64,000 nt of DNA, taken from the NCBI RefSeq assembly GCF_013113715.1, contig NZ_CP053344.1, positions 4,154,001 through 4,218,000 of the forward strand. Direction: 5' to 3'. Below, piece by piece: positions 13,278-40,448 of the stretch. The DNA comes from Herbiconiux sp. SALV-R1 (GTDB taxonomy: Bacteria; Actinomycetota; Actinomycetes; Actinomycetales; Microbacteriaceae). Positions within the stretch are counted from its first letter, which is position 1, and every line of letters starts with the position of its first letter. Position numbers and translations under genes: made by a program. Below the pieces are notes generated by a model that saw only the letters and a program-made list of their open reading frames with translations, made no database searches and was not told where the DNA came from.

Positions 13278-13306
13278 TTGACCCACTCATGGACGGTCGC
13301 TATAGT
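13278..13306 (+). promoter_or_regulatory. Sigma-70-type promoter of the ATPase-fusion Liv importer operon
   Basis: TTGACC at 13278-13283 and TATAGT at 13301-13306 are separated by exactly 17 bp, close to consensus. Transcription would start near 13313, about 36 nt before the first ATG. The tandem operators at 13305-13342 cover the -10 end and start site, so a bound regulator would block initiation. Confidence 0.8.
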
Positions 13307-13342
13307 CTCGTTTAGCAAGACATAAGTCCTGTAAAACAAGAC
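13305..13342 (+). promoter_or_regulatory. Tandem 17-bp operators, GTCCTG-N5-CAGGAC family, Liv importer operon
   Basis: Site 1 is GTCTCGTTTAGCAAGAC (13305-13321) and site 2 is GTCCTGTAAAACAAGAC (13326-13342), starting 21 bp apart, i.e. two helical turns. Both fit the palindrome seen in four other promoters of the window. The likely ligand is the IclR protein of 19271-20050. Confidence 0.75.
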
Positions 13343-13348
13343 ACACGA

Positions 13349-14860
13349 ATGGCGGGGGCAATGGTGCCCACTTCTTCTGAACCGATCCTCTCGGTGAGCG
13401 GCCTGACCCGGCGCTTCGGCGGCGTCACGGCGGTGGACGACCTGAGCTTCGCCATCTCGCCCGGCGAGAAGCTCGCGGTCATCGGCCCGAACGGCGCCGG
13501 GAAGAGCACTCTGCTCAAGCTGATCGCCGGTCAGGACAAGCCCACGCGGGGCAGCATCGAGCTGCGCGGCCAGGGCCGCACCGACGGCAAGCCCGCGCAC
13601 GTGCTGGCCCGCTCGGGCATCGCCCTCGCCCGTCAGGTGCCGAAGCCGCTCGGCTCCCTGACGGTCGAGGCGAACATCCGCGTGGGCCTCACCGCCGGCG
13701 CCTCGAGACGGAGCGGTTCGGCCGGCGAGCGGCTCGACGACATCCTCGAGCAGACCGGACTGCACACCAAGCGCTCGCGCCTGGCGAGCCAGCTGCCGCT
13801 GCTCGACCTGAAGCGACTCGAGGTGGCACGTGCCCTGTCGTCAGACCCGGTGCTCCTGCTGCTCGACGAGGTGAGCGCGGGCCTCACCGAGGGCGAGCTC
13901 GACGACGCGATCGCGCTCATCGCGCGCATCCACGAGCGCGGTACGTCGCTCATGATCGTGGAGCACGTGCAGAAGGTCGTGCACTCGCTCGCCGACCGGG
14001 TGCTCGTGCTCAACTGGGGGTCGCTGATCGCCGAGGGCACTCCCGCGGAGGTGACCGCCGACGAGGAGGTGGGCCGCATCTACCTCGGCTCGGGCCGCCA
14101 GGCCCCGACCGAGGGGCTGTCGGTGCGTGAACGCGGTGAGCACGCCCCGCGCGAAGGCGCCCGGCTCGAGCTGGCCGGTGTGAGCGCCCACCGGGCGGGC
14201 ATCACCGCGCTCGACGGCGCGTCGATCGTCATCGAACCGGGGGAGATCGTCACGGTGCTCGGTGCCAACGGCGCCGGCAAGACGTCGCTCACCCAGGCCA
14301 TCAGCGGCCTGCTCCCCGCCTCGGCCGGGTCGATCCGGTGGAACGGGGAGGACATCACCGCGGTGCCCGCCCACCGCCGGGCTCGGCTCGGCATCGCCCA
14401 CTGCCAGGAGGGTCGCAAGCTCTTCCCCGGCCTCACGGTCGCCGAGAATCTCGAGCTGGGAGCCTTCGGGACCGACCGTGCGGAACGCCGGCGTCGGCTG
14501 GAGACGGTGTACGAGATCTTCCCGGTGGTGAGAGACCGTCGGCGCCAGATCGCGACCACCATGTCGGGCGGGCAGCAGCAGATGGTGGCCATCGGGCGGG
14601 CGTTGATGTCGGCGCCCCGGCTGCTGCTGTGCGACGAGGTGACCCTGGGGCTCTCACCCCGCGTCGCCGACGAGATCTACGAGGCCCTCGGCCGCATCGC
14701 GGCGACGGCGACGAGCATGCTGCTCGTCGAGCAGGACACCGAGCGCAGTCTCTCCGTCTCCGCCCACGCCTATGTGCTCTCCCGCGGCGCCGTCGTCTAC
14801 GACGGCGCCCCCAGCGGACTGTCGAAGTCCGTTCTCCACCAGGCCTATCTGGGCCTGTAG
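13349..14860 (+). CDS. Fused branched-chain-type ABC transporter ATPase (LivG-LivF in one chain)
   Basis: 503 aa with two complete ABC ATPase domains. The first (about 10-245, LivG-like) has Walker A GPNGAGKS at residues 46-53 and Walker B LLLLDEVSAGL; its signature is degenerate (QLPLLDLKRLEVARAL, no Ser-Gly-Gly). The second (about 265-503, LivF-like) has GANGAGKT, the signature TMSGGQQQMVAIGRAL and LLLCDEVTLGL. The two proteins are normally separate; here one polypeptide would power the importer formed with 14907-18130. ATG 13349 and ATG 13361 are both possible starts. First gene of an operon that ends with the alcohol dehydrogenase. Confidence 0.92.
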   Translation: MAGAMVPTSSEPILSVSGLTRRFGGVTAVDDLSFAISPGEKLAVIGPNGAGKSTLLKLIAGQDKPTRGSIELRGQGRTDGKPAHVLARSGIALARQVPKPLGSLTVEANIRVGLTAGASRRSGSAGERLDDILEQTGLHTKRSRLASQLPLLDLKRLEVARALSSDPVLLLLDEVSAGLTEGELDDAIALIARIHERGTSLMIVEHVQKVVHSLADRVLVLNWGSLIAEGTPAEVTADEEVGRIYLGSGRQAPTEGLSVRERGEHAPREGARLELAGVSAHRAGITALDGASIVIEPGEIVTVLGANGAGKTSLTQAISGLLPASAGSIRWNGEDITAVPAHRRARLGIAHCQEGRKLFPGLTVAENLELGAFGTDRAERRRRLETVYEIFPVVRDRRRQIATTMSGGQQQMVAIGRALMSAPRLLLCDEVTLGLSPRVADEIYEALGRIAATATSMLLVEQDTERSLSVSAHAYVLSRGAVVYDGAPSGLSKSVLHQAYLGL

Positions 14861-14906
14861 CACCCACAGCTGCCGTGCACCACGGCGACCCGAGAGGAAT
14901 GAACGA

Positions 14907-16124
14907 ATGAAACGAACGATGTCGGCAGTGTCGGCGGTATCGGTCCTCGCCCTGCTGCTCGCGGGATGCAGCGGCGCCGGCGGCGACGGTGGAGGCTCCG
15001 GTGACGGTGACACCATCACGATCGGTGCGAGCATCCCGCTGACGGGGTCGCTCGCCGGGTTCGGCCCCCTCATCCAGGACGGCTACCAGGATGCGGTCGA
15101 CCAGGTGAACGCGGCAGGCGGCATCGAGATCGACGGCACCGCGCACCAGGTCGAGCTCGTCGTGCAGGACAACAAGTCCGATTCGACGACCGCGGGCGAT
15201 CAGGCCAGGAGCCTCATCCTCGAGAACGGCGCCGTCGCGCTCCTCGGCTCGGTGAGCCCGCCCCTGAACATCCCCATGTCGAACGTCGCGGAGGTGGAGC
15301 AGGTGCCCTTCGTCACCTCGCTCACCCCCACGCGTGCCTGGCGCGCGGGCAACGAGAGCGGCTGGACCTACGCCTGGGACATGTTCTTCGACGAGGAGAC
15401 CATGACCGACCTGCAGTTCACCACCTCCGACCTGGTCGCCACCAACAAGAAGGTCGCGTTGTTCACCGACAACGAGGAGGACGGCATCACCATGGGTGCG
15501 CTGTGGGAGGCCAAGGCCCCGACGTTCGGGTATGAGATCGTGTCGCACTCCGAGTTCCCGGTGGGCACCTCCGACTTCTCCTCCTTCATCAACGACGCCA
15601 AGGCCGCGGGGGCCGAGGTGGTCATCGCGCAGATGACCCCGCCCGACGCGTTCGCCCTGTGGAAGCAGATGAAGGCGCTCCAGTTCGATCCGCAGGTCGC
15701 CTTCTGCGAGAAGTGCGCCGCGACCGCGGCCTTCCAGAAGGAACTCGGCGAGACGGCGGAAGGCACGACCTCGACGAACTTCTACGAGACCTCCGAGCAT
15801 CCTGACGCCGTTCGGCTGACCGAGAAGTTCGGCGCCCAGCTCGGGCAGAACGTCGACCTCTCGACCCTCATCATCTCCCAGAGCGCCGCGCAGGTGCTGC
15901 TCGACGCCATCGCCGCGGCGGGGTCGACCGACGGCAGCGCCATCAACGAGGCGATCGGTGCCACCGACAAGGAGTACGCGGTGGGCGACATCTCGTTCAG
16001 CGACGAGAACGTCGCCGACATCACCCCCGTGTCGTCGCAGTGGCAGGGTGACCAGATGGTGCAGGTGAACCCCCAGGGGGCGAACTCCGGCACCCTCGAA
16101 GCGCCCGTCGCCGGCCTGAAGTAA
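14907..16124 (+). CDS. Branched-chain-type ABC importer substrate-binding lipoprotein
   Basis: 405 aa. Lipobox LLAGC puts the lipid-carrying Cys at 21, followed by a Gly/Ser/Asp linker. The mature part is a Peripla_BP_6 (LivK-like) protein starting TITIGASIPLTGSLAGFGPL, the family's usual opening. Besides amino acids, this family in actinobacteria binds aromatic acids and alcohols. GAGAGGA lies before the ATG at 14907; an ATG at 14899 closes after three codons. It sits 46 bp after the fused ATPase and before both permeases. The ligand is likely to be the substrate or precursor of the co-transcribed aryl-alcohol-type dehydrogenase (inference). Confidence 0.9.
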   Translation: MKRTMSAVSAVSVLALLLAGCSGAGGDGGGSGDGDTITIGASIPLTGSLAGFGPLIQDGYQDAVDQVNAAGGIEIDGTAHQVELVVQDNKSDSTTAGDQARSLILENGAVALLGSVSPPLNIPMSNVAEVEQVPFVTSLTPTRAWRAGNESGWTYAWDMFFDEETMTDLQFTTSDLVATNKKVALFTDNEEDGITMGALWEAKAPTFGYEIVSHSEFPVGTSDFSSFINDAKAAGAEVVIAQMTPPDAFALWKQMKALQFDPQVAFCEKCAATAAFQKELGETAEGTTSTNFYETSEHPDAVRLTEKFGAQLGQNVDLSTLIISQSAAQVLLDAIAAAGSTDGSAINEAIGATDKEYAVGDISFSDENVADITPVSSQWQGDQMVQVNPQGANSGTLEAPVAGLK

Positions 16125-16151
16125 CGACCGGATGCGAAGGGGGCGACGATC

Positions 16152-17060
16152 ATGATCGACGGCGGAGTGATCATCAGCGGACTGCTCATCGGCGGCCTGT
16201 ACGCCATCGTGGCGCTCGGACTGTCGCTGGTGTTCGGCGTGATGCGCCTGGTGAACCTCGCCCACGGCGAGCTCATCGTGATGGGGGCGTACGGCGCCTC
16301 ACTGCTGGTCACCGTCCTGGGCTGGGATCCGCTCGTGTCGATGCTGGTCGTCGCCCCCGTCGTGGCCGCGATCGCCTACCCGGTGCAGCGCTACCTGCTC
16401 ACCGGGCTGCTGCGCCGAGGGCTCGAGCCGCCGTTGGTGGCGACCTTCGGCATCTCGCTGCTGGTCAGCTCGGCCCTCGTCATCGCCTTCAGCGGCAACG
16501 CGAGGTCGATGCCGGCCGCGTACGCCCTCGACGGCGTGCAGCTCTTCGGACAGACGGTGCGGGTCTCCGACGTCATCGCCTTCGTGATCGGGGTGGTGCT
16601 CGTCGTCGCCACGCATCTCGCGATGACCAGGACGCGGTTCGGCACGGTGCTGCGAGCCGCCGCCGTCGACCCGGCCACCGCCGGCACGATGGCGATCGAC
16701 GTCAAGCACGTGTACGCCATCACCTTCGCGGCGGCGGCCGGCTTCGCCGCCGTCGCCGGCGTGCTCATCGGCATCGGTTACTCCTTCACCCCGAGCACCG
16801 GCACCTCCTACATCCTGATCGGCTTCACGGTGGTCGTGCTGGGAGGCACGGGCAGCGTGCTCGGCACCCTCTGGGGCGGCCTGGCCCTGGGTGTCATCCA
16901 GAGCGTCGGGAGCGCGGTGGTGGGCGGGCAGTACCGCGACTTCGTGATCTACGCCGCCTTCATCGTCATCCTGCTGCTGAAGCCGTTCACGCAGCGGATC
17001 GGCGACACCGTGAAGGGTGCCCGGGCAGAGCACCTCCGAGAGAAAGCAGTGCAGGGATGA
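16152..17060 (+). CDS. Branched-chain-type ABC importer permease, LivH-like
   Basis: 302 aa, highly hydrophobic with about eight membrane segments. It shows the LivH-type opening ISGLLIGGLYAIVALGLSLV and the GVMRLVNLAHGELIVMGAY loop typical of BPD_transp_2 permeases. The conserved cytoplasmic loop that docks to the ATPase lies around MTRTRFGTVLRAAAVDPATA. It would pair with the LivM-like permease encoded next, whose start overlaps its stop by 4 bp. Confidence 0.92.
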   Translation: MIDGGVIISGLLIGGLYAIVALGLSLVFGVMRLVNLAHGELIVMGAYGASLLVTVLGWDPLVSMLVVAPVVAAIAYPVQRYLLTGLLRRGLEPPLVATFGISLLVSSALVIAFSGNARSMPAAYALDGVQLFGQTVRVSDVIAFVIGVVLVVATHLAMTRTRFGTVLRAAAVDPATAGTMAIDVKHVYAITFAAAAGFAAVAGVLIGIGYSFTPSTGTSYILIGFTVVVLGGTGSVLGTLWGGLALGVIQSVGSAVVGGQYRDFVIYAAFIVILLLKPFTQRIGDTVKGARAEHLREKAVQG

Positions 17061-18130
17061 CCGCCGCCACCGTGTTCGACGCGATCGCCCGGCCCGCGGG
17101 TCGGCGCGCCATGATGTACCGCTCCATCGGCACCCTCGTCGTGCTGGCGACCGTGCTACTCGCGCTCTCGGGGGTGCTCGGCAAGCTGCAGCTCGATCTG
17201 CTGACGACCCTGCTGCTCTACATCGCGGCGGCCAGCGCCTGGAACATCATCGGCGGCTTCGCCGGCCAGTTCTCGTTGGCCAACTCGGCGTTCATCGGCA
17301 CCGGCGCCTACGCCACCGTGCTCATCCTGCGCGACCTGGGGTGGGGCGTCGTGCCGGCCCTGCTCGCCTCGGCCGTCTGCGGGGCCGTGCTGGCGCTCGT
17401 CATGGGGGCGATCCTGTTCCGGCTGAGAGACGCCTACTTCACCATCGGCTCCATGGCCGTGGCGCTGGCGGCCCTGATCTGGATGTCGAACTGGGACGTC
17501 ACCGGCGCGGCCACCGGCATCGCCGTGCCGATGTCGGAGGTGCCAGGACGGAGCACCCTCTATCTGCTCGCCGTCGTCGTCGCGGTGGTCGCCGTCGGGG
17601 TCTGCATCGCCGTCTACCACAGCGCGTTCGGGCTGCGGCTCATGGCGGTGCGGGACGACCAGGACGTCGCCGACAGCCTGGGGTTGTCGCCGGTGCGGCT
17701 GAAGCTCGCCGCCATCGGCCTCTCCGGCGCCATCACCGCAGCGGCCGGGGGCTGCATCGCGGTGCAGCAGATCACCATCGAACCGTTCTCGTCGTTCAGC
17801 ATCAACTGGTCGATGACGTTCATCGTGATGGCCATCGTCGGGGGCCTCGGCCGGGTCTGGGGCCCGACCATCGGCGCCGTCATCATCTACTACGTCATCA
17901 CGGTGCAGCTGAGGAACGTGCCGACCCTCAGCATCCTGATCGAGGGGGCGCTGCTGATCGTGCTCATCAAGGTGCTTCCCGGCGGCATCCTCGGCGGGGT
18001 CGGCCGGCTCGTCGCGGCCGTGGGCCGCCGCCTCGACGCACGTCGCCCGGCTTCGTCGGCTGACCCCGCGGCCGCCTCCGCCGCCCGCACCGAGAGCACC
18101 GAGAGCGCCGAGAGCAAGGAGCCGGTATGA
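17057..18130 (+). CDS. Branched-chain-type ABC importer permease, LivM-like
   Basis: 357 aa with about nine or ten membrane segments and a BPD_transp_2 core: YIAAASAWNIIGGFAGQFSL near the start and the ATPase-docking loop SAFGLRLMAVRDDQDVADSL. The C-terminal ~45 residues are a charged tail with repeated Glu-Ser-Thr/Ala-Glu units. The ATG overlaps the LivH stop, and its own stop overlaps the alcohol dehydrogenase start by 4 bp, so all are translated together. Confidence 0.92.
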   Translation: MTAATVFDAIARPAGRRAMMYRSIGTLVVLATVLLALSGVLGKLQLDLLTTLLLYIAAASAWNIIGGFAGQFSLANSAFIGTGAYATVLILRDLGWGVVPALLASAVCGAVLALVMGAILFRLRDAYFTIGSMAVALAALIWMSNWDVTGAATGIAVPMSEVPGRSTLYLLAVVVAVVAVGVCIAVYHSAFGLRLMAVRDDQDVADSLGLSPVRLKLAAIGLSGAITAAAGGCIAVQQITIEPFSSFSINWSMTFIVMAIVGGLGRVWGPTIGAVIIYYVITVQLRNVPTLSILIEGALLIVLIKVLPGGILGGVGRLVAAVGRRLDARRPASSADPAAASAARTESTESAESKEPV

Positions 18131-19230
18131 CCATCGAGATCCGGGCCGCCGTCGTCAGAGAACCCCGCGGCCCCTTCGTCACCGAGACGCTGCGCCTGCG
18201 CGCACCGGAGGCCGACGAGGTCGTGGTGCGTCTGGTCGCGAGCGGCGTGTGCCACACCGACGCCATCGTGCGCAACGGCCACTACCCGGTGCCCTTCCCG
18301 GTGGTGCTCGGCCACGAGGGCGCCGGCATCGTCGAAGCCGTCGGCCCCGACGTGCAGGGCCTCGCACCCGGCGACCACGTCATCCTGAGCTTCGTCTCGT
18401 GCGGCGTCTGCTCCACCTGCGCAGCGGGCCGGCCCGCGCTCTGCCAGTCGGCGTTCGAGCTCAACTTCCTCGGCTCCTGGCAGCAGGGCGCGCCGGCCGC
18501 GCACGACGTGAACGGCGACGAGATGGGAGCGGGGTTCTTCGGCCAGTCGAGCTTCGCCGACCATCTGCTCGCGCCGGCGTCGTGCGTGGTCAAGGTCGAC
18601 GACGACCTCGACCTCACCCTGGCCGCGCCGCTCGGGTGCGGCATCCAGACCGGCGCCGGCGCCGTGCTGAACAGCCTCCGGCCCCCGGCGGGCTCCACCA
18701 TCGCCGTGTTCGGTGCGGGGGCCGTGGGTCTGTCGGCGATCATGGCCGCGGTGATCGCCGGATGCTCGACGATCGTCGCCGTCGACCTGCAGGAGTCCCG
18801 CCTGCAGCTCGCGCTCGAACTCGGTGCGACGCACGTGGTCGACCCGACGGCGGCGCCCGTCGTCGAGACCGTGCGCGCACTGACGGGCGGCGGTGTCGAG
18901 TTCGCCCTCGACACGACCGGTAACCCCGCCGTCGTGCGGCAGGCGATCGAGTCTCTGCGCATCGCCGGCACCTTCGGGCTGATCGGCGCCTCGAAGACCG
19001 GCACCGAGGTGTCGCTCGACCTCACCCACATGCTGTTCGGGCGCACCTTCCGCGGCATCATCGAGGGCGACAGCGTGCCGCGGGAGTTCATCCCCGAGCT
19101 CATCCGGCACCATCGCTCGGGTCGGTTCCCCTTCGACCGGCTGGTGCAGCACTTCGCGCTCGACGAGCTCGAGGAGGCGGTGTCGGCGTCGGAGCGGGGC
19201 ACGGTCGTCAAGCCGGTGATCAGGTTCTGA
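18127..19230 (+). CDS. Zinc-dependent NAD(P) alcohol dehydrogenase, aryl/benzyl-alcohol type
   Basis: 367 aa medium-chain dehydrogenase. Catalytic zinc ligands: Cys42 (GVCHTD), His63-Glu64 (LGHEGAGIVEAVG) and the Cys in PLGCGIQTGAG. Structural zinc lobe: Cys92, 95, 98 and 106. The Rossmann motif is VFGAGAVGLSAIMAA. The LGCGIQTGAGAVLN pattern is typical of benzyl/aryl alcohol dehydrogenases (XylB/AreB group), which oxidise aromatic alcohols to aldehydes in the cytoplasm. It is the last gene of the ATPase-fusion Liv importer operon, so the imported compound may be an alcohol or be converted to one. The benzaldehyde-type dehydrogenase at 32845 shares the same operator and could take the next step. 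Confidence 0.9.
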   Translation: MTIEIRAAVVREPRGPFVTETLRLRAPEADEVVVRLVASGVCHTDAIVRNGHYPVPFPVVLGHEGAGIVEAVGPDVQGLAPGDHVILSFVSCGVCSTCAAGRPALCQSAFELNFLGSWQQGAPAAHDVNGDEMGAGFFGQSSFADHLLAPASCVVKVDDDLDLTLAAPLGCGIQTGAGAVLNSLRPPAGSTIAVFGAGAVGLSAIMAAVIAGCSTIVAVDLQESRLQLALELGATHVVDPTAAPVVETVRALTGGGVEFALDTTGNPAVVRQAIESLRIAGTFGLIGASKTGTEVSLDLTHMLFGRTFRGIIEGDSVPREFIPELIRHHRSGRFPFDRLVQHFALDELEEAVSASERGTVVKPVIRF

Positions 19231-19270: not shown

Positions 19271-20050
19271 TCAGGCGTCGTGCAGGGTCACCCGTTCGGA
19301 GAGGTGAGCCGCGGCACGCACGATGGCGTCGGTGATCGAGGGCACCGCCTCCTGGTCGATGCGCGACTGGATGAGCACCACGCTGAGGCCCGCCACCACC
19401 GTGCCCCCGCTCGAGAAGATGGGGGCGGCGATACCCATCGCCTCCTGGTCGACCTCGCCGCGCGTGACGGCGAATCCGTCGCTCCTGATGGCGGCGAGTC
19501 GCTCGACGATGGCGTCGGGGTCGACCAGGGTGGCGTCGGTGAACCGGGTGAGCGGCTGGGCGGCGAGCAGTTCGCGCACGCGCGCCTCGGGCAGCCAGGC
19601 CAGCAGCACCAGGGCGCTGGCGCCGGCGTTGATGTCGAGCAACGATCCCCGCTCGTACGACAGCCGCACGTACTGCCGCTGCGACTCCTCCCGCTCGAGG
19701 CACACGATCGAGTTGCCCGAGAGCCGGGTGAGCAGCACCGTCTGGTGCAGCTCCTCGGCGAGCTGCCGCATGGTGGGCAGGGCGAGTTCGGCCACTCCCT
19801 GGCTCCGGCGGGCGATGCGCGACAGCTGCAGGATCTTCACTCCGAGGCGGAACCCGCGGCCCGGGTCCTCCTCCAGGAACGACGCCGTCACGAGCGTCTG
19901 CAGATAGCGGTAGGCGGTCGACCGGGCGACACCGAGGGTCTCGGCGACGTCGACCGCGGTGATGATCAGGCGATCGTCGTCGAACATCTCGAGGATCGTC
20001 AGGGCACGGTCGGCGGTGCTGTTCCGCTCGCGGTAACCGCTCTCGTTCAT
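19271..20050 (-). CDS. IclR family transcriptional regulator, likely master regulator of the central catabolic region
   Basis: 259 aa. The N-terminal winged HTH (about 10-70) contains ITAVDVAETLGVARSTAYRYL; the rest is the IclR GAF-like effector domain, with INAGASALVLLAWLPE, and a C-terminal helix. ATG 20050 is preceded by GAGGGAG at 6 nt; an upstream in-frame ATG at 20074 has no comparable site. The gene is divergent from the ring-cleavage operon, and the 131-bp gap between them carries the tandem GTCCTG operators at 20113-20150, so it probably controls itself and that operon. Matching operators elsewhere suggest four further targets. IclR proteins in these pathways typically bind an aromatic acid or pathway intermediate. 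Confidence 0.9.
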   Translation of the reverse strand: MNESGYRERNSTADRALTILEMFDDDRLIITAVDVAETLGVARSTAYRYLQTLVTASFLEEDPGRGFRLGVKILQLSRIARRSQGVAELALPTMRQLAEELHQTVLLTRLSGNSIVCLEREESQRQYVRLSYERGSLLDINAGASALVLLAWLPEARVRELLAAQPLTRFTDATLVDPDAIVERLAAIRSDGFAVTRGEVDQEAMGIAAPIFSSGGTVVAGLSVVLIQSRIDQEAVPSITDAIVRAAAHLSERVTLHDA

Positions 20051-20112: not shown

Positions 20113-20150
20113 GTCCTGTTTATCAGGTATAGTTTCCTGCATGCTAGGCA
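20113..20150 (+). promoter_or_regulatory. Tandem 17-bp operators between the IclR gene and the ring-cleavage operon
   Basis: Site 1 is GTCCTGTTTATCAGGTA (20113-20129) and site 2 is TTCCTGCATGCTAGGCA (20134-20150), starting 21 bp apart. A -10 box, TATAGT (20128-20133), lies between them, so both sites flank the promoter of the operon that starts at 20182. No strong -35 is visible, which suggests activation rather than only repression. Confidence 0.75.
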
Positions 20151-20181: not shown

Positions 20182-21789
20182 GTGATCCGCGAGGTCGAGA
20201 CCTGCGACGTGCTCGTCGTCGGTGCCGGCCCGGTGGGCATGACGGCGGCGCTGCTGCTGGCAGCGCGGGGTGTCGGCGTCGTGCTCGCGGAGCGCAATCT
20301 GCACACGAGCAACGACCCCAAGGCCATCAGCCTCGACGACGAGTCACTGCGCTCCTACCAAGACGCGGGCATCGAGTCGCAGGTGATGTCGGTGATCGTG
20401 CCGGGCACCGGCACGAGATACTACGGTGCCGACGACCGGCCGTTGTTCCACGCCCGGTCGGCGGCGCCGTTCCGCAACGGGTTCCCCTTCAAGAACCCGT
20501 TCGCCCAGCCCGATCTCGAGCGCGTGCTGATGGGGGCCCTGCGGTACGACTCGAACGTGCGCGTGCTGCTCGGCGCTGCGCTCACGAGCATCCACCTCGA
20601 CTCCGACGGCGTCGAGGCCACCACGGGAGGCGACTCCCCGCGCACCATCCGGGCGCGCTACCTGCTCGGCGCCGACGGCGGCCGCTCGACGGTGCGTTCG
20701 CTGCTCGGCTCGACGATGAGCGGTCGCAGTCACGACGACGTGTGGCTCGTCGTCGACACCACGGGAGACACCCGCACCGAGCGCTACGGCATGCACCACG
20801 CGTTGCCCGAGCGGCCGCATGTGATCGTGCCCGGGCTCGACGGGCGATGCCGGTACGAGTTCCGGCTCTTCCCGGGAGAGGGCGAGGCCGGCAAAGAACC
20901 CGAGTTCGAGCTCATCGAACGACTCGTCTCGCGCTACCGCACGATCACCCCCGACCAGGTCGAGCGCGCGGTGTCGTACCGCTTCCACGGCCTGAACGCC
21001 GACCACTACCGAGAGGGCCCGGTGTTCCTGCTGGGCGACGCGGCGCACATGATGCCGCCGTTCGCCGGGCAGGGGCTCAACTCGGGCCTCCGCGACGCCG
21101 CCAATCTGTGCTGGAAGATCGCCGAATGCCTCGCCGGCCGCCTCGCCGACTCCGCCCTCGACTCCTACGAGACCGAGCGCCGCCCTCACGCGGAGGCGGT
21201 CATCCGGAGTTCCGAGAGGCTCGGCCGGGTGGTGATGACGACCGACCGTCGCCTCGCCGAGTTCCGCGACACCGTCGTGCGGAACTCGCTGCACACCGAG
21301 GAGGGCCGCCGCTTCTTCGAGGAGATGCGCTACCGCCCCGTCGTGCGCTACACCGACGGTCTCGTCGATGGCGACCATCCGCTCGTGGGTACCCAGATCG
21401 GGCAGCCCCGGGTGTTCGACTTCTCGGTGCGGCGCACGGTGCCCTTCGACAGCATGGTGGGCTCGGGGTGGGCGCTCGTGGGGGTCGACGTCGACGCGGC
21501 GGCGTGGGACGCCGTGGCCCCGATAGCCCGCCGTCTGCACGCGCCGCTGATCAGCGTGCCCCTCGACGACACCATCGTCGTCGACGAGCGCGTGCACGTG
21601 GCGGTCGACCTCGACACACTGCTCTACCGCGAGTTCGCCCCCGCCCGCGGCTCGTTCGTCGTGCTGCGGCCCGACCACTTCGTCGCCGCGGTCTGGTCTC
21701 CCGACGCGCTCGACGACGCCGAGCACGCCCTCGAGCGGTGGGGTGTTCCCGCCGCCCTCACCCTCTCCGACCCCCTACCCGCCGCCTAG
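20182..21789 (+). CDS. FAD-dependent aromatic hydroxylase (MhpA/PheA-type class A monooxygenase)
   Basis: 535 aa. It has the dinucleotide motif GAGPVG at 14-19, the second FAD/NADPH motif LLGADGGRSTVRSLLG and the GD motif FLLGDAAHMMPPFAGQGLN. Size and motifs match 3-(3-hydroxyphenyl)propionate hydroxylase and related single-component phenol or resorcinol hydroxylases, with a thioredoxin-like C-terminal domain (~380-535). Such enzymes add a hydroxyl ortho to an existing one using NAD(P)H and O2, giving a catechol. The next gene encodes a dioxygenase that could open that ring. First gene of an eight-kilobase operon under the IclR operator. Confidence 0.9.
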   Translation: MIREVETCDVLVVGAGPVGMTAALLLAARGVGVVLAERNLHTSNDPKAISLDDESLRSYQDAGIESQVMSVIVPGTGTRYYGADDRPLFHARSAAPFRNGFPFKNPFAQPDLERVLMGALRYDSNVRVLLGAALTSIHLDSDGVEATTGGDSPRTIRARYLLGADGGRSTVRSLLGSTMSGRSHDDVWLVVDTTGDTRTERYGMHHALPERPHVIVPGLDGRCRYEFRLFPGEGEAGKEPEFELIERLVSRYRTITPDQVERAVSYRFHGLNADHYREGPVFLLGDAAHMMPPFAGQGLNSGLRDAANLCWKIAECLAGRLADSALDSYETERRPHAEAVIRSSERLGRVVMTTDRRLAEFRDTVVRNSLHTEEGRRFFEEMRYRPVVRYTDGLVDGDHPLVGTQIGQPRVFDFSVRRTVPFDSMVGSGWALVGVDVDAAAWDAVAPIARRLHAPLISVPLDDTIVVDERVHVAVDLDTLLYREFAPARGSFVVLRPDHFVAAVWSPDALDDAEHALERWGVPAALTLSDPLPAA

Positions 21790-21847
21790 CGGAAAACGAG
21801 GCGCAGGCCGTGATCGATCGGCCCGCCGGAACAGAAAGGAATGTCCC

Positions 21848-22780
21848 GTGAGTGACGCGAACCGCATCACCCTGTCCCAGAGCGACACTGCCGGAACCCT
21901 GCGCAAGACAGCCGTCTCGCACATCGGCTTCCGGGTGCCCGACGTCGCCGCCGCCGAACGCTTCTACTCCCGCGTGCTGGGCATGAAGCGGCACGAGGAG
22001 CTGGCCGACGGCGCCGTGCGCCTCGGCTGGGGCTCCGGCCACCACGTCATCGACCTGTTCCCCGGCGAACAGGGACTCGTGCACTACGGCTTCGAGGTGC
22101 GCGACGAGGGCGGGATCGCCGGTATCAGGGAGCGTCTGACCGCCGCCGGCCACGAGGTCGCCGACCTCGACCCCTCGTACATCGACGCCGCGGCCGGTGA
22201 GCCCGTCGGCATCTCGTTCACCGACCCCGACGGCACCGAGGTGCACTTCCACTCCGAGGTCGAGCGGCAGGGCGAGAACGCGGCCGACCCCGGCCGCCGC
22301 CCGGTGAAGTTCCAGCACACCACGCTCACCACCACCGACGTGCCAGGGCTGGTCTCGTTCTATGTCGACACGGTCGGCTTCCGCATCTCCGACCAGCTCG
22401 CCGACGGCCGGTTCTGCTGGCTCCGCAGCGACAAGGACCACCACACGCTCGCCATCGTCGACACCGGTCGCGCGGGCGACATCGACCACTACTCCTACGA
22501 CCTCGCGGAATGGGAGGACTTCAAGTCCTGGTGCGATCGCCTCTCCGAGCTCGACGTCGACGTGCAGTGGGGGCCGGGGCGCCACGGCCCCGGCAACAAC
22601 CTGTTCGTCTTCTTCGACGACCCGGCGGGCAACCACATCGAGCTCTCCGCCGAGATGGAGAAGTTCTGGGACGACCGGGTGGCCTACGAGCCGCGACGTT
22701 GGGAGCCGATCCCGCACAGCGTGAACCTCTGGGGCGGCCAGACGCCGACCTGGCGCAAGACGAGCGAGGTGCGCATCTGA
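21848..22780 (+). CDS. Extradiol ring-cleavage dioxygenase, two-VOC-domain type
   Basis: 310 aa from GTG 21848, with GAAAGGA upstream; an ATG at 21841 closes after four codons. Two vicinal-oxygen-chelate domains: first at about 18-145 (starting SHIGFRVPD), second at about 155-285 (starting FQHTTLTTTDVPGLV). Metal ligands expected in the second domain are the His of FQHTTL, a His in DHYSYDL or HHTLAIVD, and the Glu of NHIELSAEM, as in type I catechol 2,3-dioxygenases. It would split the catechol made by the preceding hydroxylase next to a hydroxyl group. The following FAH-family gene overlaps its stop. Confidence 0.88.
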   Translation: MSDANRITLSQSDTAGTLRKTAVSHIGFRVPDVAAAERFYSRVLGMKRHEELADGAVRLGWGSGHHVIDLFPGEQGLVHYGFEVRDEGGIAGIRERLTAAGHEVADLDPSYIDAAAGEPVGISFTDPDGTEVHFHSEVERQGENAADPGRRPVKFQHTTLTTTDVPGLVSFYVDTVGFRISDQLADGRFCWLRSDKDHHTLAIVDTGRAGDIDHYSYDLAEWEDFKSWCDRLSELDVDVQWGPGRHGPGNNLFVFFDDPAGNHIELSAEMEKFWDDRVAYEPRRWEPIPHSVNLWGGQTPTWRKTSEVRI

Positions 22781-23604
22781 TGGCCTACCTCAGCTACCTC
22801 GCCGACGGTGAACCGCACGTGGGCGTCGTCGACGGCGACGACATCATCCCGCTGGAGGGCGTGCGGGCCATCGGGCCGGGCACGGGAACCGACGAGCTGG
22901 CCGCGGCGACACGCCTGGAGCACCAGCGCGTCGCCCGGGCGGCCGTCGAGCTCCTGCCGTCGAGCCCCCGCCCCGGCAAGGTCTTCTGCGTGGGGCTCAA
23001 CTACTCCTCGCACATCGAGGAGACCAAGCGCGATCTGCCCACCTACCCGGTGCTGTTCCCGAAGTTCGCGTCGAACCTCGTCGGCGCCGACGCGCCCATC
23101 GTCGCGCCGCCGGAGTCGACCCAGATCGACTACGAGGGCGAGCTCGCCGTCATCATCGGGCGGCCGGGGCGGCGCATCCGCCCTGAAGACGCCCTCGACC
23201 ACGTGCTCGGCTACAGCGTGGCCAACGACGTGACCATGCGCGACTACCAGTACAAGACCCACCAGTGGACCCAAGGGAAGGCCTGGGACGCCTCGACGCC
23301 CCTCGGTCCGACCGTGATGACCCCCGACGAGGTCGACGTCTCGGCGGCGGGCATCCGCACGACCGTCAACGATCAGGTGGTGCAGGACTCCGACCTGTCG
23401 AAGCTCATCTTCGACATCCCGACCCTCATCGCGACCATCTCGGAGTTCACGGTGCTCGAACCGGGCGACGTCATCCTCACCGGCACCCCCGGGGGTGTCG
23501 GCTTCCGCCGCGACCCCCAGCTGTTCCTGCACCCGGGCGACCGGGTGAGCGTCGAGATCGACGGCGTGGGCCGCATCGACAGCCTCGTGGTTGCCGAGAG
23601 CTGA
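22780..23604 (+). CDS. Fumarylacetoacetate hydrolase (FAH) family protein, meta-cleavage product hydrolase or hydratase
   Basis: 274 aa with the FAH catalytic core: KVFCVGLNYSSHIEE, the metal-binding YEGELAVIIG, the GYSVANDVTMRDYQ loop, and VILTGTPGGVGFRRDP near the end. The family splits C-C bonds of diketo acids (acylpyruvases, maleylpyruvate hydrolase) or hydrates 2-oxopent-4-enoates. Most catechol meta pathways use an alpha/beta hydrolase (MhpC/XylF) for the first C-C split; none is encoded in this operon, so this protein may take over that step. The ATG overlaps the dioxygenase stop (TGATG). Confidence 0.88.
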   Translation: MAYLSYLADGEPHVGVVDGDDIIPLEGVRAIGPGTGTDELAAATRLEHQRVARAAVELLPSSPRPGKVFCVGLNYSSHIEETKRDLPTYPVLFPKFASNLVGADAPIVAPPESTQIDYEGELAVIIGRPGRRIRPEDALDHVLGYSVANDVTMRDYQYKTHQWTQGKAWDASTPLGPTVMTPDEVDVSAAGIRTTVNDQVVQDSDLSKLIFDIPTLIATISEFTVLEPGDVILTGTPGGVGFRRDPQLFLHPGDRVSVEIDGVGRIDSLVVAES

Positions 23605-27017: not shown

Positions 27018-27536
27018 ATGCTCTTCGATTTCGGACAGCCGACGGACGGTGTCATTCAGCTGGCGTTCGTCGTTCCCGACCTCGAGCAGGCCATGGCGGA
27101 GTACTCCGCACGTCTGTCGATCGGGCCGTGGACAGTGTTCCGCGACTTCGCAGGTCACGACCCGCGGTATCACGGCGAACCGACCGAGGCCGTCGCGCAC
27201 GTCGCGCTCGGCTTCGGGGGTCACCTGCAGTACGAGCTCATCCAGCCGGCCGATGACCTGCCCTCCGTGCACCGCGACGTCATCGCGGACCGCGGCTACG
27301 GCTTCCACCACTTCGGCGTCGCGACCACGACCTTCGACGCTTCGGTGGCGGAGTACGTCGCGCGCGGCTACCCCGTGGTGTTCAGCGCCTCGGTCGACCC
27401 TCAGTCGCGCGTCGCCTATTTCGACACTCGCGACGTGCTGCCCGGCATGACCGAGCTGATCGAGGCGAGCGAGTCGACCGAGCGGGCCTTCACCCGGATG
27501 TTCGCGGCATCCGCCAGCCGTCAGCTCTCCGTCTGA
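27018..27536 (+). CDS. Glyoxalase/VOC superfamily protein
   Basis: 172 aa, one VOC unit: VIQLAFVVPDLEQAMAEYSARL at the start and GYGFHHFGVATTTFDASVAEY in the middle, the Glyoxalase_4 pattern. The potential metal ligands are few, so it may be an isomerase/epimerase, a binding protein or a dioxygenase helper. AAGGAGA lies just upstream of the ATG, 16 bp after the ThDP enzyme. It is the last gene of the ring-cleavage operon, and its end overlaps the convergent LivF-like gene by 16 bp. Confidence 0.8.
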   Translation: MLFDFGQPTDGVIQLAFVVPDLEQAMAEYSARLSIGPWTVFRDFAGHDPRYHGEPTEAVAHVALGFGGHLQYELIQPADDLPSVHRDVIADRGYGFHHFGVATTTFDASVAEYVARGYPVVFSASVDPQSRVAYFDTRDVLPGMTELIEASESTERAFTRMFAASASRQLSV

Positions 27537-31048: not shown

Positions 31049-31063
31049 GAGTCACTCGATTCC

Positions 31064-31094
31064 GGGGCGTGCGGCGGGTGTCGCCGCACGCCCC
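31064..31094 (-). terminator. Intercistronic 13-bp hairpin between binding-protein and permease genes
   Basis: GGGGCGTGCGGCG and CGCCGCACGCCCC are perfectly complementary with a 5-nt loop. It lies between the stop of the binding-protein gene (31125) and the start of the permease gene (31048). Such hairpins often stop part of the transcripts or protect the upstream mRNA, giving more binding protein than membrane subunits. Confidence 0.65.
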
Positions 31095-31124
31095 TGGGGG
31101 TCGTCGGTCAGCTGGAGGGGCCGG

Positions 31125-32444
31125 TCACTGACCGGTCAGGGCTAGGTCGCCGACGTCGAGGCCCTTGCCGTCGGTGGGGTCGACCCACTTTCCGTCGCCC
31201 TCGTAGTTGACCGGGAAGGCGGCGGTCGTGCAGAGGCTCTGCGCACCCTGGTCGGCGTACTGACCGCACTCGATCGTGGGCGGGCCGACGAACACCGGCC
31301 CGGTGAAGTCGTGCACTGCCTTGCGGATCGCCTCGACCGAGAGGTTGTCATACCCGACCTCGTTGAGCGCCCGCACCTGGCTGACGAACATCTGGAAGGT
31401 GCCGTTGGCCCCGCCGGCCCGATTGGCGTCGGGCGAGTAGGCATCCATGACCGCGTTGTAGAGCTGCACGTCGTCGTCTTCGACTCCGATAGGACTCTTC
31501 AGGGGCTGGATGTAGGTCCACTTCGGGTAGTCGCCGAGCGCGTCGGAGACGGAGGAATCCTGGCAGAACCCGAAAGTCTCCACCGGAGCCGTGACGCCCA
31601 GCTGCTGCAGCGCCTCGGCGAAGGGCACACAGGCCGTCGTCGCACCGCTCATCACCACCGCATCCGCGGTCTGAGCGCCGGACGCGGCGAGGGCGCTCGC
31701 CCACTCCGAGGTGTTCGTCGCGGGCACCGAGGTGATGTCCATGTCGAACTGGGGGCCGAGCCCGGTGATGACCTGAGCTGCGGCCGCGGCCCCGGGGTCG
31801 GTGCCGTCGTAGACGACCGCGATCTTCTTGGCCTTCAGGTACTCGTCGGCGTAGACGATCACGCCGGGGCCGGTCGCATAGGCGGCGGCCTCGTAGAAGG
31901 CGACGCCGGCCTGGTCGAGATCGATCGGGTTGAAGGTTCCCTGACCGACGACGTTCTTCGACTCGCCGAGGGTCGTGTAGATCGGCCCGGTGCCCAATAC
32001 CGTCATGCCGAGCTGCACGGTGAGGATGTCGGGGTCGTTGGCGAAGTCCTGAGCGCACTTCTGCGCATCCTCTTCGCCCTGCACGATGTTGCACTGAACG
32101 AGCTCGACCGGGTGGCCGCCGACGCCACCGAGCTGTTCGTTGATGAAGCGCACCGCCACCTGGGCTGCGTTGGTCGACTCGGGGAAGGAGGGCACTCCTC
32201 CGTCGACATTGATGAAGCCGATCTTCACCGGGTCGAGCGAGGTGTCCGCTGCGCCGGCGCTGCCGCCGGTGTACTCCACGCCGAGCGCGATCTGATCGGC
32301 GGTGAACGCCGAGGAGTCGACGGGGGTGGCGGCTGAGGTGGAGCCGCCGTCGCCTGCCGAGCCGGTGCAACCGCTGAGGGCGACTGCCAGAGCGAGGGTC
32401 GAGGCGACGACGACTGGGGTGGTTCGTCGCAGAGGGGTCTTCAT
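31125..32444 (-). CDS. Branched-chain-type ABC importer substrate-binding lipoprotein
   Basis: 439 aa. Lipobox ALSGC with the lipid-carrying Cys at 26, then a Gly/Ser linker. The mature part is a Peripla_BP_6 protein, with DPVKIGFINVDGGVPSFPE and AAQVAVRFINEQLGGVGGHP, typical of LivK-like proteins for aromatic or amide ligands. It is only distantly similar to the binding protein at 14907, so the two importers probably take different but related ligands. AAGGAGA lies 8 nt before ATG 32444. First gene of the second Liv operon, with its own strong promoter and tandem IclR-type operators. Confidence 0.9.
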   Translation of the reverse strand: MKTPLRRTTPVVVASTLALAVALSGCTGSAGDGGSTSAATPVDSSAFTADQIALGVEYTGGSAGAADTSLDPVKIGFINVDGGVPSFPESTNAAQVAVRFINEQLGGVGGHPVELVQCNIVQGEEDAQKCAQDFANDPDILTVQLGMTVLGTGPIYTTLGESKNVVGQGTFNPIDLDQAGVAFYEAAAYATGPGVIVYADEYLKAKKIAVVYDGTDPGAAAAAQVITGLGPQFDMDITSVPATNTSEWASALAASGAQTADAVVMSGATTACVPFAEALQQLGVTAPVETFGFCQDSSVSDALGDYPKWTYIQPLKSPIGVEDDDVQLYNAVMDAYSPDANRAGGANGTFQMFVSQVRALNEVGYDNLSVEAIRKAVHDFTGPVFVGPPTIECGQYADQGAQSLCTTAAFPVNYEGDGKWVDPTDGKGLDVGDLALTGQ

Positions 32445-32508: not shown

Positions 32509-32574
32509 GTCCTGAATATCAGGCCACGGGTCTTGTTTCTTGAAGAATACGACCGGTGTCCTGCTTCGTCAAGA
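32509..32574 (-). promoter_or_regulatory. Promoter and tandem GTCCTG-type operators of the second Liv importer operon
   Basis: Reading the minus strand, TTGACG (32572-32567) and TATTCT (32549-32544) are 17 bp apart. Operator GTCTTGTTTCTTGAAGA (32530-32546) overlaps the -10 box and GTCCTGAATATCAGGCC (32509-32525) lies 21 bp further into the transcript, the same geometry as at 13305-13342. A third half-site, GTCCTG, occurs at 32558-32563 between the -35 and -10 boxes. Confidence 0.75.
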
Positions 32575-32844: not shown

Positions 32845-34302
32845 CTAGAACGGGTACGGTGCGATCTCCGAGCGCACCGTGAGCCACTGCGTCTCGGTGA
32901 AGGCCTCGATGTTGGCCTCCGCGCCGCCGAAGCGCGATCCGGTTCCCGAGTCTCCGGCACCGCCGAACGGGGCGTTCGCCTCGTCGGCGACGGTCTGCTC
33001 GTTGATGTGGATCTTGCCCGAGTCGATCCGGTCGGCGAGCGTCATCGCCTGCCCGACGTCGCCCAGGATGCTGAGCGAGAGCGCGAACGGGCTGCGGCTG
33101 ACGATGTCGACGGCTTCGTCGAGGGTGCTGAACGGGATGACCGGGGCGACCGGCCCGAAGATCTCCTCCGACCAGGCCTCCATCTCCGGGGTGAGCCCCG
33201 AGAGCACGGTCGGCTTGTAGAACAGCCCCTCGTGGGTTCCGCCGGCGGCGAGCGTGCCGCCCTGAGCGACCGTGCGCTGCACGATGCCGTCGATGCGCTC
33301 GAGCTGACGGGAGTCGATGATCGGCCCGAGTGCCACCTGGCCCGACGCCGGGTCGCCGACCGGGAGGTGCGAGGCCTTCTCGGCCAGCAGTGCGACGTAC
33401 TCCTCGTAGAGCGACTCGTGCACCAGGTGCCGCCCCGTCGTCATGCAGATCTGCCCCTGGTGCAACCACGACCCGAAGGCGCCGGCCGAGGCGGCCTTGG
33501 CGACGTCGGCGCCGGGCAGCACGATCATCGCGTTGTTGCCGCCGAGCTCCAGGTGCGCCCGCTTGAGGTGGCGGGCCGCCGACTCGCCCACCTTGCGGCC
33601 CGCCGGTGTCGACCCGGTGAACGAGATCACCCGCACCTCGGGGGCCTCGATGAGGGCGGCGCCGACATCGGCTCCGCCGGGGAGCAGCTGGAGCACACCG
33701 GCCGGGAGCCCGGCCTCCTCGAAGATGCGCGCGATGATGACGCCGCCCGAGACGGTGGTGCGGGGGTCGGGCTTCAGCAGCACGGCGTTGCCGAGCGCGA
33801 GCGCGGGGGCCACCGACCTGATCGAGAGCACGAGGGGGAAGTTGAAGGGGGAGATGACCGCGACGACGCCGGCCGGCCGGCGCCGGGAGATCGACCAGTG
33901 GTCGACGTTCGAGGGCAGCACCTGCCCGTGCGGGTGTGAGGGCAGGGCCGACGCCTCGAAGCACTCCTCGGCCGCGCTCGCCGCCTCGATCCCCGCCTTG
34001 GCCGGGATGCTCCCGGCTTCGCGGATGACCCAGTCGATCACCTCGTCGGCGTGCTTCTGGAACAGGATCCCGGCTCGGCGCAGCACCGCGGCGCGCTCCG
34101 AAGGGATCGTCGCCGCCCACTCCTTCTGCGCCTCGGCGGCCGATCGCGCGGCGTCGGCGACGTCTCGCGGGTCGGCGAGACCGACCTCGGCGAGGGTGCT
34201 GCCCGATGCGGGTTCGACGACGCTCTGGGTTCCGCCCCCGCCCCCGTGCCACTCGCCCGTGAAGATGGAGCCCTTCCAGTCGTGCTCGGTGAGAAGAGAC
34301 AT
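32845..34302 (-). CDS. Aldehyde dehydrogenase, benzaldehyde/vanillin dehydrogenase type
   Basis: 485 aa ALDH. Catalytic Cys286 (QGQICMTT), general base Glu252 (LELGGNN) and the cofactor motif FTGSTPAGRKVGESA are all present. The GQICM Cys context and the FNFPLVLSIRSVAPALALGN segment match benzaldehyde and vanillin dehydrogenases, which oxidise aromatic aldehydes to acids. It could connect the alcohol dehydrogenase (18127) and the carotenoid-oxygenase homologue to pobA/pca if the product is 4-hydroxybenzoate; this is inference. Monocistronic on the minus strand, with a GGAGGAAT ribosome site and a GTCCTG-type tandem operator upstream. Confidence 0.9.
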   Translation of the reverse strand: MSLLTEHDWKGSIFTGEWHGGGGGTQSVVEPASGSTLAEVGLADPRDVADAARSAAEAQKEWAATIPSERAAVLRRAGILFQKHADEVIDWVIREAGSIPAKAGIEAASAAEECFEASALPSHPHGQVLPSNVDHWSISRRRPAGVVAVISPFNFPLVLSIRSVAPALALGNAVLLKPDPRTTVSGGVIIARIFEEAGLPAGVLQLLPGGADVGAALIEAPEVRVISFTGSTPAGRKVGESAARHLKRAHLELGGNNAMIVLPGADVAKAASAGAFGSWLHQGQICMTTGRHLVHESLYEEYVALLAEKASHLPVGDPASGQVALGPIIDSRQLERIDGIVQRTVAQGGTLAAGGTHEGLFYKPTVLSGLTPEMEAWSEEIFGPVAPVIPFSTLDEAVDIVSRSPFALSLSILGDVGQAMTLADRIDSGKIHINEQTVADEANAPFGGAGDSGTGSRFGGAEANIEAFTETQWLTVRSEIAPYPF

Positions 34303-34341: not shown

Positions 34342-34379
34342 GTTTTGTTTATCAGGATTCTAGTCTCGAAAAATCGGAC
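34342..34379 (-). promoter_or_regulatory. Tandem 17-bp operators upstream of the aldehyde dehydrogenase
   Basis: GTTTTGTTTATCAGGAT (34342-34358) and GTCTCGAAAAATCGGAC (34363-34379) start 21 bp apart. A minus-strand -10 box, TAGAAT (34362-34357), lies between them, as in the 20113-20150 promoter. Same operator family as at four other promoters. Confidence 0.7.
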
Positions 34380-36422: not shown

Positions 36423-36450
36423 GGTCGATGATCGCACTCCGCCGGGCTGG

Positions 36451-36469: not shown

Positions 36470-36537
36470 ACCCGACCACCGTGATCGCGCGTGCCCGACC
36501 ATGGGATCACGCACTCCCAGGCGTCGAAGGAGACACC

Positions 36538-37353: not shown

Positions 37354-37355
37354 TC

Positions 37356-39243: not shown

Positions 39244-40019
39244 CCCTTCCCGCGCTCGCCCTCCGCGACCTGGGCGGAGCATCCGATCTGCCGTTGCTGG
39301 TGCTCGGGCCCTCGCTCGGCACCTCGACAATCCTCTGGGAGACCACGGCGCCCCTGCTCCGCGACCGCTTCCACCTCGTCGCCTGGGATCTCCCGGGGCA
39401 CGGCGACTCGGTTCCCGCGGCGTCGCCGTTCACCGTCGCCGAGCTCGCCGACGCGGTCGCCGCGGCCGTCGACGGCCCCTTTTTCTACGCGGGCGTCTCG
39501 CTGGGCGGAGCGACCGGGCTCGAGCTGCTGCTGCGGCACGCCGATCGGGTTCGGGCCGCGGCCATCATCGCCTCGGGCGCCCAGCTCGGCGATCCGGCCG
39601 GGTGGCACGACCGGGCCGCGCAGGTGCGGTCGCAGAGCACCTCGAGCGTGATCGTGGCGTCGGCCGGGCGATGGTTCGCGCCGGAGTCGGTGGCCCGGCA
39701 TCCCGATCTCACGGGCCGGCTGCTGCACGCCCTGCAAGACGCCGACGACGAGTCGTACGCCCTCTGCTGCGAGGCTCTCGCCGCCTACGACGTGCGCGAC
39801 CGGCTCGGCCGGGTCGCCGCCCCGGTGATGGCCGTGTGGGGTCGTCACGACGGGGTGGCGCCGGAGGCGAAAGCGGCGGAGATCGCCGCGGGGGTGACCC
39901 ACGGCCGCATCGCGGTCATCGAGGGTGCCGCCCACCTGCCCCCGGCGGAGCAGCCCGAGGCGACCGCCGCGATCATCGCCGACTTCGTCGGCCGGGCGAC
40001 GGAAGGGACGGTCTCATGA
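39240..40019 (+). CDS. pcaD: 3-oxoadipate enol-lactonase
   Basis: 259 aa alpha/beta hydrolase from GTG. The nucleophile is Ser87 in AGVSLGG; the catalytic Asp lies in VWGRHDGVAPE and the His in EGAAHLPPAEQPEA. It hydrolyses 3-oxoadipate enol-lactone to 3-oxoadipate, the last ring-derived step before CoA transfer. In many actinobacteria this domain is fused to PcaC as PcaL; here it is a separate protein, and its stop overlaps the pcaC start by 4 bp. Confidence 0.92.
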   Translation: MTLPALALRDLGGASDLPLLVLGPSLGTSTILWETTAPLLRDRFHLVAWDLPGHGDSVPAASPFTVAELADAVAAAVDGPFFYAGVSLGGATGLELLLRHADRVRAAAIIASGAQLGDPAGWHDRAAQVRSQSTSSVIVASAGRWFAPESVARHPDLTGRLLHALQDADDESYALCCEALAAYDVRDRLGRVAAPVMAVWGRHDGVAPEAKAAEIAAGVTHGRIAVIEGAAHLPPAEQPEATAAIIADFVGRATEGTVS

Positions 40020-40417
40020 GTCGACCAGGCGGCGAAGGGCACAGCGACGCCGAACGGTGGGAGCAGGGGATGGCCGTGCGCAGGGCCGTGCTCTCCGACG
40101 AGCACGTCGACCGGGCCACGGCGGCCACCACCGAGCTGACCGCCGACTGGCAGGACTTCATCACCCGCACCGCGTGGGGCGACGTGTGGTCGCGACCGGG
40201 TCTGGATCGCCGCTCCCGCTCGATCGCGGTGCTCACCTCGCTAATCGCGCACGGTCACGAGGAGGAACTCGCGATGCACCTGCGGGCGGCGGTGCGCAAC
40301 GGCCTCACGGTCGCCGAGATCGGCGAGGTCATCCTCCAGTCGGCCATCTACTCGGGAGTACCCGCTGCCAACGTGGCGTTCCGGATCGCCTCTCGAGTCT
40401 TCAGCCAGTCGTCCTGA
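40016..40417 (+). CDS. pcaC: 4-carboxymuconolactone decarboxylase
   Basis: 133 aa, standard length. It shows the AhpD-like fold with RRSRSIAVLTSLIAHGHEEEL and the C-terminal VAEIGEVILQSAIYSGVPAANVAF pattern specific to this family. It decarboxylates 4-carboxymuconolactone to 3-oxoadipate enol-lactone. Last gene of pcaHGBDC; pcaIJ and pcaF (CoA transferase, thiolase) are not in the window. Confidence 0.95.
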   Translation: MSRPGGEGHSDAERWEQGMAVRRAVLSDEHVDRATAATTELTADWQDFITRTAWGDVWSRPGLDRRSRSIAVLTSLIAHGHEEELAMHLRAAVRNGLTVAEIGEVILQSAIYSGVPAANVAFRIASRVFSQSS

Positions 40418-40448
40418 TTGTCGCGTACGGAGTCCTGTTTTGCAGGTA
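40411..40448 (+). promoter_or_regulatory. GTCCTG-type operators upstream of the HSL-family hydrolase gene
   Basis: The strong site is GTCCTGTTTTGCAGGTA (40432-40448), nearly identical to the site at 20113. A half-site, GTCCTG, lies exactly 21 bp upstream (40411-40416), overlapping the pcaC stop. A possible -10 box, TATCCG, follows at 40447. Places the hydrolase gene in the same regulon as the importers. Confidence 0.7.

Follow-up and report, generated by a model that had tools for sequence, protein, structure and literature searches.

Five paired palindromes in an aromatic-compound degradation cluster

The window analyzed here is a 64-kb stretch (69.9% GC) of the 4.52-Mb genome of Herbiconiux sp. 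SALV-R1 that domain and family model searches identify as an aromatic-compound degradation cluster. An earlier note on this stretch described paired 17-bp palindromes at five promoters and named the IclR-family gene at 19271-20050, hereafter IclR1, as their natural candidate regulator. All ten palindromes were found in place, and their starts are exactly 21 bp apart within each of the five pairs, which we denote operators A to E. Given the evidence presented below, it is very likely that these pairs are the operators of a single repressor, the protein encoded at 19271-20050.

Operator A (13305..13342, plus strand; palindromes 13305-13321 and 13326-13342), which has the best tandem score in the window, precedes Liv importer operon 1, in which Pfam domains identify fused ATPases, a binding protein and two permeases, followed by a zinc alcohol dehydrogenase (13349..19230, plus strand). 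Operator B (20113..20150, no strand assigned) lies between IclR1 (19271..20050, minus strand) and the divergent ring-cleavage operon, the core of which (20182..23604, plus strand) encodes, according to model searches, a flavin adenine dinucleotide (FAD) hydroxylase, a type I extradiol dioxygenase and a fumarylacetoacetate-hydrolase-type enzyme, and recurs at the IclR1 loci of relatives. The best models of the hydroxylase are those of 3-(3-hydroxyphenyl)propionate hydroxylase, with scores below the cut-offs (400.2 vs 546 and 369.6 vs 390). Operator C (32509..32546, minus strand) precedes Liv importer operon 2 (27521..32444, minus strand; domain searches), whose binding protein probably starts at ATG 32444, with AAGGAG just upstream, rather than at 32507. 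Operators D (34342..34379, minus strand) and E (40411..40448, plus strand) precede, respectively, an aldehyde dehydrogenase (32845..34302, minus strand) and an alpha/beta hydrolase of the hormone-sensitive-lipase kind (40479..41399, plus strand). As read from this arrangement, the predicted regulon very probably comprises Liv importer 1 with the alcohol dehydrogenase, the ring-cleavage operon, Liv importer 2, the aldehyde dehydrogenase and the hydrolase. The tandem pair is absent from the seven other promoter regions scanned, namely those of the RPE65-family oxygenase (CCD), PobA, PcaH, LLM, HsaB, SDR/TPP and a further IclR-type gene (IclR3, see below), so the regulon covers part of the cluster.

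The consensus of the palindromes is approximately GTCYTRWWWWWYARGAC. A perfect copy of the proposed operator GTCCTG-N5-CAGGAC is found in none of the ten palindromes; the best ones (13326 and 32509) carry one mismatch, and four pairs include a partner with a weak weight-matrix score (20134, 32530, 34363 and 40411). Matches to the bare consensus with up to three mismatches are slightly fewer in the window than expected (41 vs 50.2), and the 121 genome-wide matches with two mismatches are scattered, compared with 97 for the same pattern read backward. Lacking enrichment, the strict consensus was dropped as a search motif in favor of a tandem model. The distinctive feature is the pair with A/T-rich centers, not the bare consensus.

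In the leave-one-promoter-out scans, a symmetric weight matrix was built from four promoters and the fifth was scored among 63,963 window positions. The omitted pair ranked 1, 5, 5, 4 and 5 in the five scans, and the five true pairs were the top five in every scan (scores 27-46), with an off-register overlap of a true pair in sixth place (about 20). The best partner located 17-60 bp from the stronger site falls at 21 bp in four of the five promoters. When a 38-position sequence model trained on the five window pairs (R1) was run over the 4.52-Mb genome with a first-look filter, it returned the five known places and nothing else at E≤10; given that these places trained the model, the informative part of this result is the absence of a sixth site. 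Random scatter across the genome, which the earlier note gave as a refuting outcome, is thus a property of the single palindrome and not of the tandem model.

IclR1 and the operator in other genomes

IclR1 contains the Pfam domains HTH_IclR (47.0 bits, cut-off 22) and IclR_C (118.8 bits, cut-off 24); its start, ATG 20050, was chosen from the N-terminus common to three orthologues. Close relatives were detected at three loci in the genome collection and in eight other genomes among 398 of the family (E≤1e-60), one of the eight duplicating the record of a locus from the first set, which leaves ten other IclR1 genomes in which the protein is approximately 50-89% identical to that of the window. 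Where such a close relative belongs to a named record, the organism is a member of the Microbacteriaceae in all three cases (Homoserinimonas, assigned as G081 to the window's own family, Subtercola and Microbacterium). In a search of 60 relatives, the proteins among the matches listed, besides the window's own match, show at most 35% identity to IclR1; 29 of their loci were used as controls. Gene content is largely shared between the ten loci fetched from the other genomes: the extradiol dioxygenase is present at all ten, the hydroxylase at nine (absent from L070, and at a distance of 6 kb in L069) and the hydrolase, with at least 59% identity, at nine, L074 having a distant one only.

The spacing of palindrome pairs was assessed with a matrix trained on the window alone (pair sum of at least 18, each half at least 5) and 20 simulated sets; L068 (G081, Homoserinimonas), being the reverse complement of L048, was counted once. 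In the IclR1 loci (214,629 bases), 19 pairs have the 21-bp spacing, the expected number being 0.05. Across spacings of 17-63 bp, 40 pairs were found, of which 21 are not at 21 bp (null total 2.05), some of them from arrays of three to four palindromes. The 21-bp pairs were found in L048, L049, L050, L067/L092, L069, L071 and L073, with a degenerate pair in L072; two 20-bp pairs of L074, located inside a predicted gene, are taken as chance. The 44 control loci (152,286 bases), 29 of them around IclR paralogues and the remainder around chance matches of the bare motif, yielded a single pair at 20 bp and no pair with the 21-bp spacing.

A second operator model (R2) was derived from the five window pairs and eight pairs of L048-L050, so that its training sites came from G000, G081, G426 and G427 and not from G063, G424, G266, G226 or G340; its runs over many genomes used stricter filters, at which weak matches are lost. 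Over the 11 IclR1 genomes, nine have matches at E≤5, each within approximately 21 kb of IclR1. Over the 398 genomes of the family, at E≤1, matches occur in seven of the nine genomes with IclR1 and in six of the 389 without it (p=2e-10); after removal of the training genomes G000 and G081, five of seven IclR1 genomes match (p=1.2e-7). The recognition-helix segment VARSTAYRY is identical in IclR1 and eight orthologues at operator-bearing loci. In the IclR tree, the IclR1 grouping has support of 71/88 only, and five paralogue rows are of odd composition, probably through mistranslation. Altogether, co-occurrence, clustering near IclR1 and the mostly 21-bp spacing elsewhere argue for the candidate put forward in the earlier note; as judged from sequence comparison, there is good support for IclR1 as the protein that controls the five operators.

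Several further features of these loci were recorded. Upstream of its IclR1 relative, G266 has an array of four palindromes at intervals of 22-23 bp (L070 9675-9758). The L069 pair at 5671-5708 sits behind an aldehyde dehydrogenase gene. Microbacterium sp. 2FI (G426) has a further match to the operator model (G426:C6:37181-37212) approximately 10.7 kb from IclR1, outside the fetched locus. L097, a match in a genome without IclR1, has a distant fumarylacetoacetate-hydrolase-type gene nearby. At the Subtercola locus L049, IclR1 is surrounded by two GMC oxidoreductases (7890-9695 and 10813-12840), xylose-isomerase-like proteins (4094-5107) and a sugar-type binding protein (1747-2994), a gene content that hints at the use of aromatic glycosides.

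Predicted promoters, probable mode of action and alternative explanations

A promoter scan detected one promoter, TTGACC-N17-TATAGT (13278..13306, plus strand; mean of 0.0 in shuffles), with operator A starting on its last two bases and hence touching the -10 box. A box search placed the predicted -10 box TATAGT (20128..20133, plus strand) in the linker of operator B, at offset 15, as is also the case in L067 (G063) and at L050:10955, with offset 14 in two operators of L049. Operator C is touched by the predicted promoter TTGACG-N17-TATTCT (32544..32572, minus strand), also present in G063, and the predicted -10 box TAGAAT (34357-34362, minus strand; box search) extends across the linker of operator D. 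At four of the five promoters (A-D), a predicted -10 box is thus in contact with a palindrome or located in the linker of the pair, and at these promoters it begins 3-7 bases ahead of a palindrome. A good -35 box is missing at operators B and D.

From this placement of the -10 boxes, we infer repression by an IclR tetramer that is released by an aromatic ligand. Each 17-bp palindrome would bind one IclR1 dimer; with two helical turns between the palindromes of a pair, both dimers would face the same side of the DNA and be held there as a tetramer. At operators A-D, the transcription start would fall within the operator or under the bound protein, and RNA polymerase would be blocked. An aromatic metabolite would release the repressor and thereby induce, at the same time, the genes for uptake, ring cleavage, aldehyde oxidation and ester hydrolysis. 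Given that operator B is shared with the divergent IclR1 gene, autoregulation of IclR1 through this operator is likely.

A number of observations weigh against this explanation or limit its support. At operator C, a 28-bp shift from 32509 outscores the 21-bp partner (15.0 vs 8.2), so this weak partner is the least certain of the ten sites. G266 and one L049 site (L049:3004) deviate with a spacing of 22-23 bp; the best pair of L069 (5671-5708, score 32.9, G424) and the L072 pair at 14427 precede no gene in the automatic gene list. R2 has no match in G382 and G279, where IclR1 is about 50% identical, and the six genomes that match without IclR1 score 12.2-14.7 bits, overlapping some IclR1-adjacent sites (G266 12.9, G081 13.8 and operator E 13.8), but the 9-14 kb stretches around these six genomes' matches contain no IclR1-like gene, which speaks for the explanation. 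There is no clear -10 box at operator E, on the IclR1 side of operator B or at several pairings in relatives. TATA[AG]T boxes do occur in excess, in 7 of the 29 pairings of an operator with a gene vs about 0.04 expected, in favor of the explanation, yet this expectation is too low because it was drawn from whole, mostly coding loci. Finally, G063 is not a fully independent case, given that its operators B and C nearly repeat those of the window.

The earlier note treated the window as having one IclR gene, whereas it holds three; the other two, IclR2 (35670-36458) and IclR3 (47795-48592), belong to the same family and cluster as IclR1 and could in principle act on the five operators. Both fit this role poorly, which makes their involvement quite improbable. 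Relatives of IclR2 are present in 4 of the 11 IclR1 genomes including the window's (E≤1e-50), the other three being on contigs without IclR1, and those of the diverged IclR3 in 2 of the 11, the window's and G063 (E≤1e-30); moreover, both proteins differ from IclR1 in the VARSTAYRY segment of the recognition helix. A different type of palindrome, TTCCC(A/G)-N5-(C/T)GGGAA, is found at 8 of the 29 IclR-paralogue loci and also beside IclR2, where the palindrome TTCCCGATCATCGGGAA (35647-35663) lies between IclR2 and the 4-hydroxybenzoate-hydroxylase gene, and IclR2 is probably a pob/pca regulator. If IclR1 is the regulator, it might still be a ligand-dependent activator, as PobR and PcaU are, a reading in line with its best curated model, PcaR/PcaU/PobR, albeit far below the cut-off, and with the lack of good -35 boxes at operators B and D. 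Activators seldom bind over the -10 box, and operators A-D cover or touch the predicted one, so that activation appears unlikely.

The other alternatives dispense with a regulator of the pairs altogether. In a scan for terminators between 13200 and 13400, the palindrome at 13326-13342 was flagged, in the orientation opposite to the gene, as would be expected if the palindromes were RNA hairpins acting as terminators or attenuators; yet the first palindrome of operators B and D lies upstream of the predicted start and hence would not be transcribed, and the sites serve divergent genes, are phased at 21 bp and accompany one DNA-binding protein, which renders hairpins highly improbable. The failure of the bare consensus to be enriched, along with the four weak sites among the ten, would fit a chance similarity picked by eye, a possibility so slight as to be negligible because the leave-one-out scans, the genome-wide scan and the pairs of other genomes refute it. 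Repression by IclR1 through the five tandem operators is thus the reading that we retain as the most probable.

Recognition sequence, known IclR systems and possible assembly of the regulon

Tandem IclR sites with 18-22 nt between centers (mainly 19-21) have been reported for 94 orthologous groups, in regulons rich in aromatic metabolism and transport that include Liv genes, and this spacing has been linked to tetramers with dimers on one helix face (Suvorova and Gelfand, 2021, PMC8222616). The earlier note knew of no published operator of this form, a suggestion of novelty that is overstated, tandem IclR sites about 21 bp apart being a published class (PMC8222616). The operators described here resemble those of that survey, as far as its printed account goes, in the 21-bp spacing of all five window pairs and of 19 pairs in the loci of relatives, in the position of an operator next to the regulator gene and its conservation with it (G382 and G279 having no R2 match), and, for group 1 of the survey, in the 17-bp palindrome with an A/T center. 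The printed motif of that group is GKTYCRYW3-4RYGRAMC (PMC8222616); in contrast to its half-site GKTYCRY, GTCCTG has C for T at position 3 and mostly T for C at position 5, and it fits none of the four subgroups printed there. Thus, with respect to this survey, the tandem arrangement is already known for the IclR family, and only the CTG-type half-site departs from the consensus.

Among 92 half-sites, the counts of the consensus bases are G 55, T 68, C 73, C 64, T 72 and G 63, with T in 13 cases at position 3 and C in 17 at position 5, and the central base is A or T in all 46 palindromes of 23 operators; all these sites were chosen by the motif, so that the counts are biased. The set omits L067 (identical to operator B), the 22-23-bp arrays of L070 and L049:3004, the weak L049:9959 and the variants in L072 and L074. 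The most distant IclR1 relatives are those of G382 and G279, whose recognition helices deviate at the residue preceding RS (ISRST and VSRSS, respectively); in these genomes, the sites between the hydroxylase and IclR1 resemble GTCTCR/ATCCCG instead (L072 9471 and L074 9518). Changed helix together with changed half-site, at two loci only, suggests that the half-site may shift along with the recognition helix.

By sequence, IclR1 matches the chain of TtgV of Pseudomonas putida (PDB 2XRO; E=1.1e-14), an IclR-family protein cited for tetramer binding (PMC8222616), which, unlike IclR1 with its predicted regulon, regulates efflux transporters. The best NCBIfam model of IclR1 is PcaR/PcaU/PobR (TIGR02431; 139.1 bits, far below the cut-off of 284.75), and its predicted regulon, like those of these regulators, belongs to aromatic catabolism; PcaU itself uses a three-box site (PMC8222616). 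The score against the BhcR model NF045644 (127.8 bits) is also below its cut-off (350). The ring-cleavage operon follows the same reaction order as clusters of the mhp and hpp type. Those clusters combine a flavin hydroxylase, an extradiol dioxygenase and a hydrolase, as hcdABC reportedly does too; the window differs from them in that its third gene is of the fumarylacetoacetate-hydrolase type and its hydroxylase is under the model cut-offs. Neither the GTCCTG motif nor an IclR1-type regulator was found in the literature searched, and a description may exist elsewhere in print; both IclR1 and its recognition sequence look undescribed.

Nearly the same cluster is present in the genome denoted G063 (IclR1 89% and CCD 94% identical). 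Operator B is identical there at 38 of 38 bases, in both palindromes including the weak one, with flanks at 13/60 and 18/40, and operator C is kept at 34 of 38 bases, with flanks at 26/60 and 10/40; given that the alignment is ungapped, the flank identities are lower bounds. Two blocks of the window appear as if they had been inserted there or lost in G063. The block 13349-19230 (the Liv importer and dehydrogenase, with the best operator) separates CCD from IclR1, two genes whose ends lie 59 bp from each other in G063. Similarly, the block 34402-40019 (pob/pca with its own IclR) lies between the aldehyde dehydrogenase and the hydrolase, which in G063 are divergent neighbors around one operator. 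A special similarity of operator E to this shared operator was considered and rejected, the 25 of 38 matching bases being no more than between operators A and D. IclR1 and its orthologues appear to make up a new regulator group with a variant half-site. It is conceivable, though on present evidence we lean against it, that this is a group of Microbacteriaceae whose regulon grows by capture of modules with the 38-bp operator.

CCD (11824-13263) matches carotenoid- and lignostilbene-cleaving enzymes by sequence, and stilbenes were considered as the substrate of the cluster on account of this relationship. Given that its promoter lacks the operator and that the gene is found at only two of the ten IclR1 loci fetched from other genomes, this stays a guess.

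The tandem architecture itself will not surprise specialists. What has changed is that a motif spotted by eye becomes a testable regulon: a single candidate regulator for five promoters, which share a defined 38-bp operator, with ten further genomes that encode this regulator and can serve for tests. The predicted regulon links side-chain oxidation with ring cleavage and uptake under a single predicted signal, which aids the search for the substrate and could yield a biosensor promoter. If true, the joint change of recognition helix and half-site seen in two relatives amounts to a natural experiment, on a small scale, in IclR specificity, and the regulator group, should it prove real, could help to decipher how IclR proteins read DNA.

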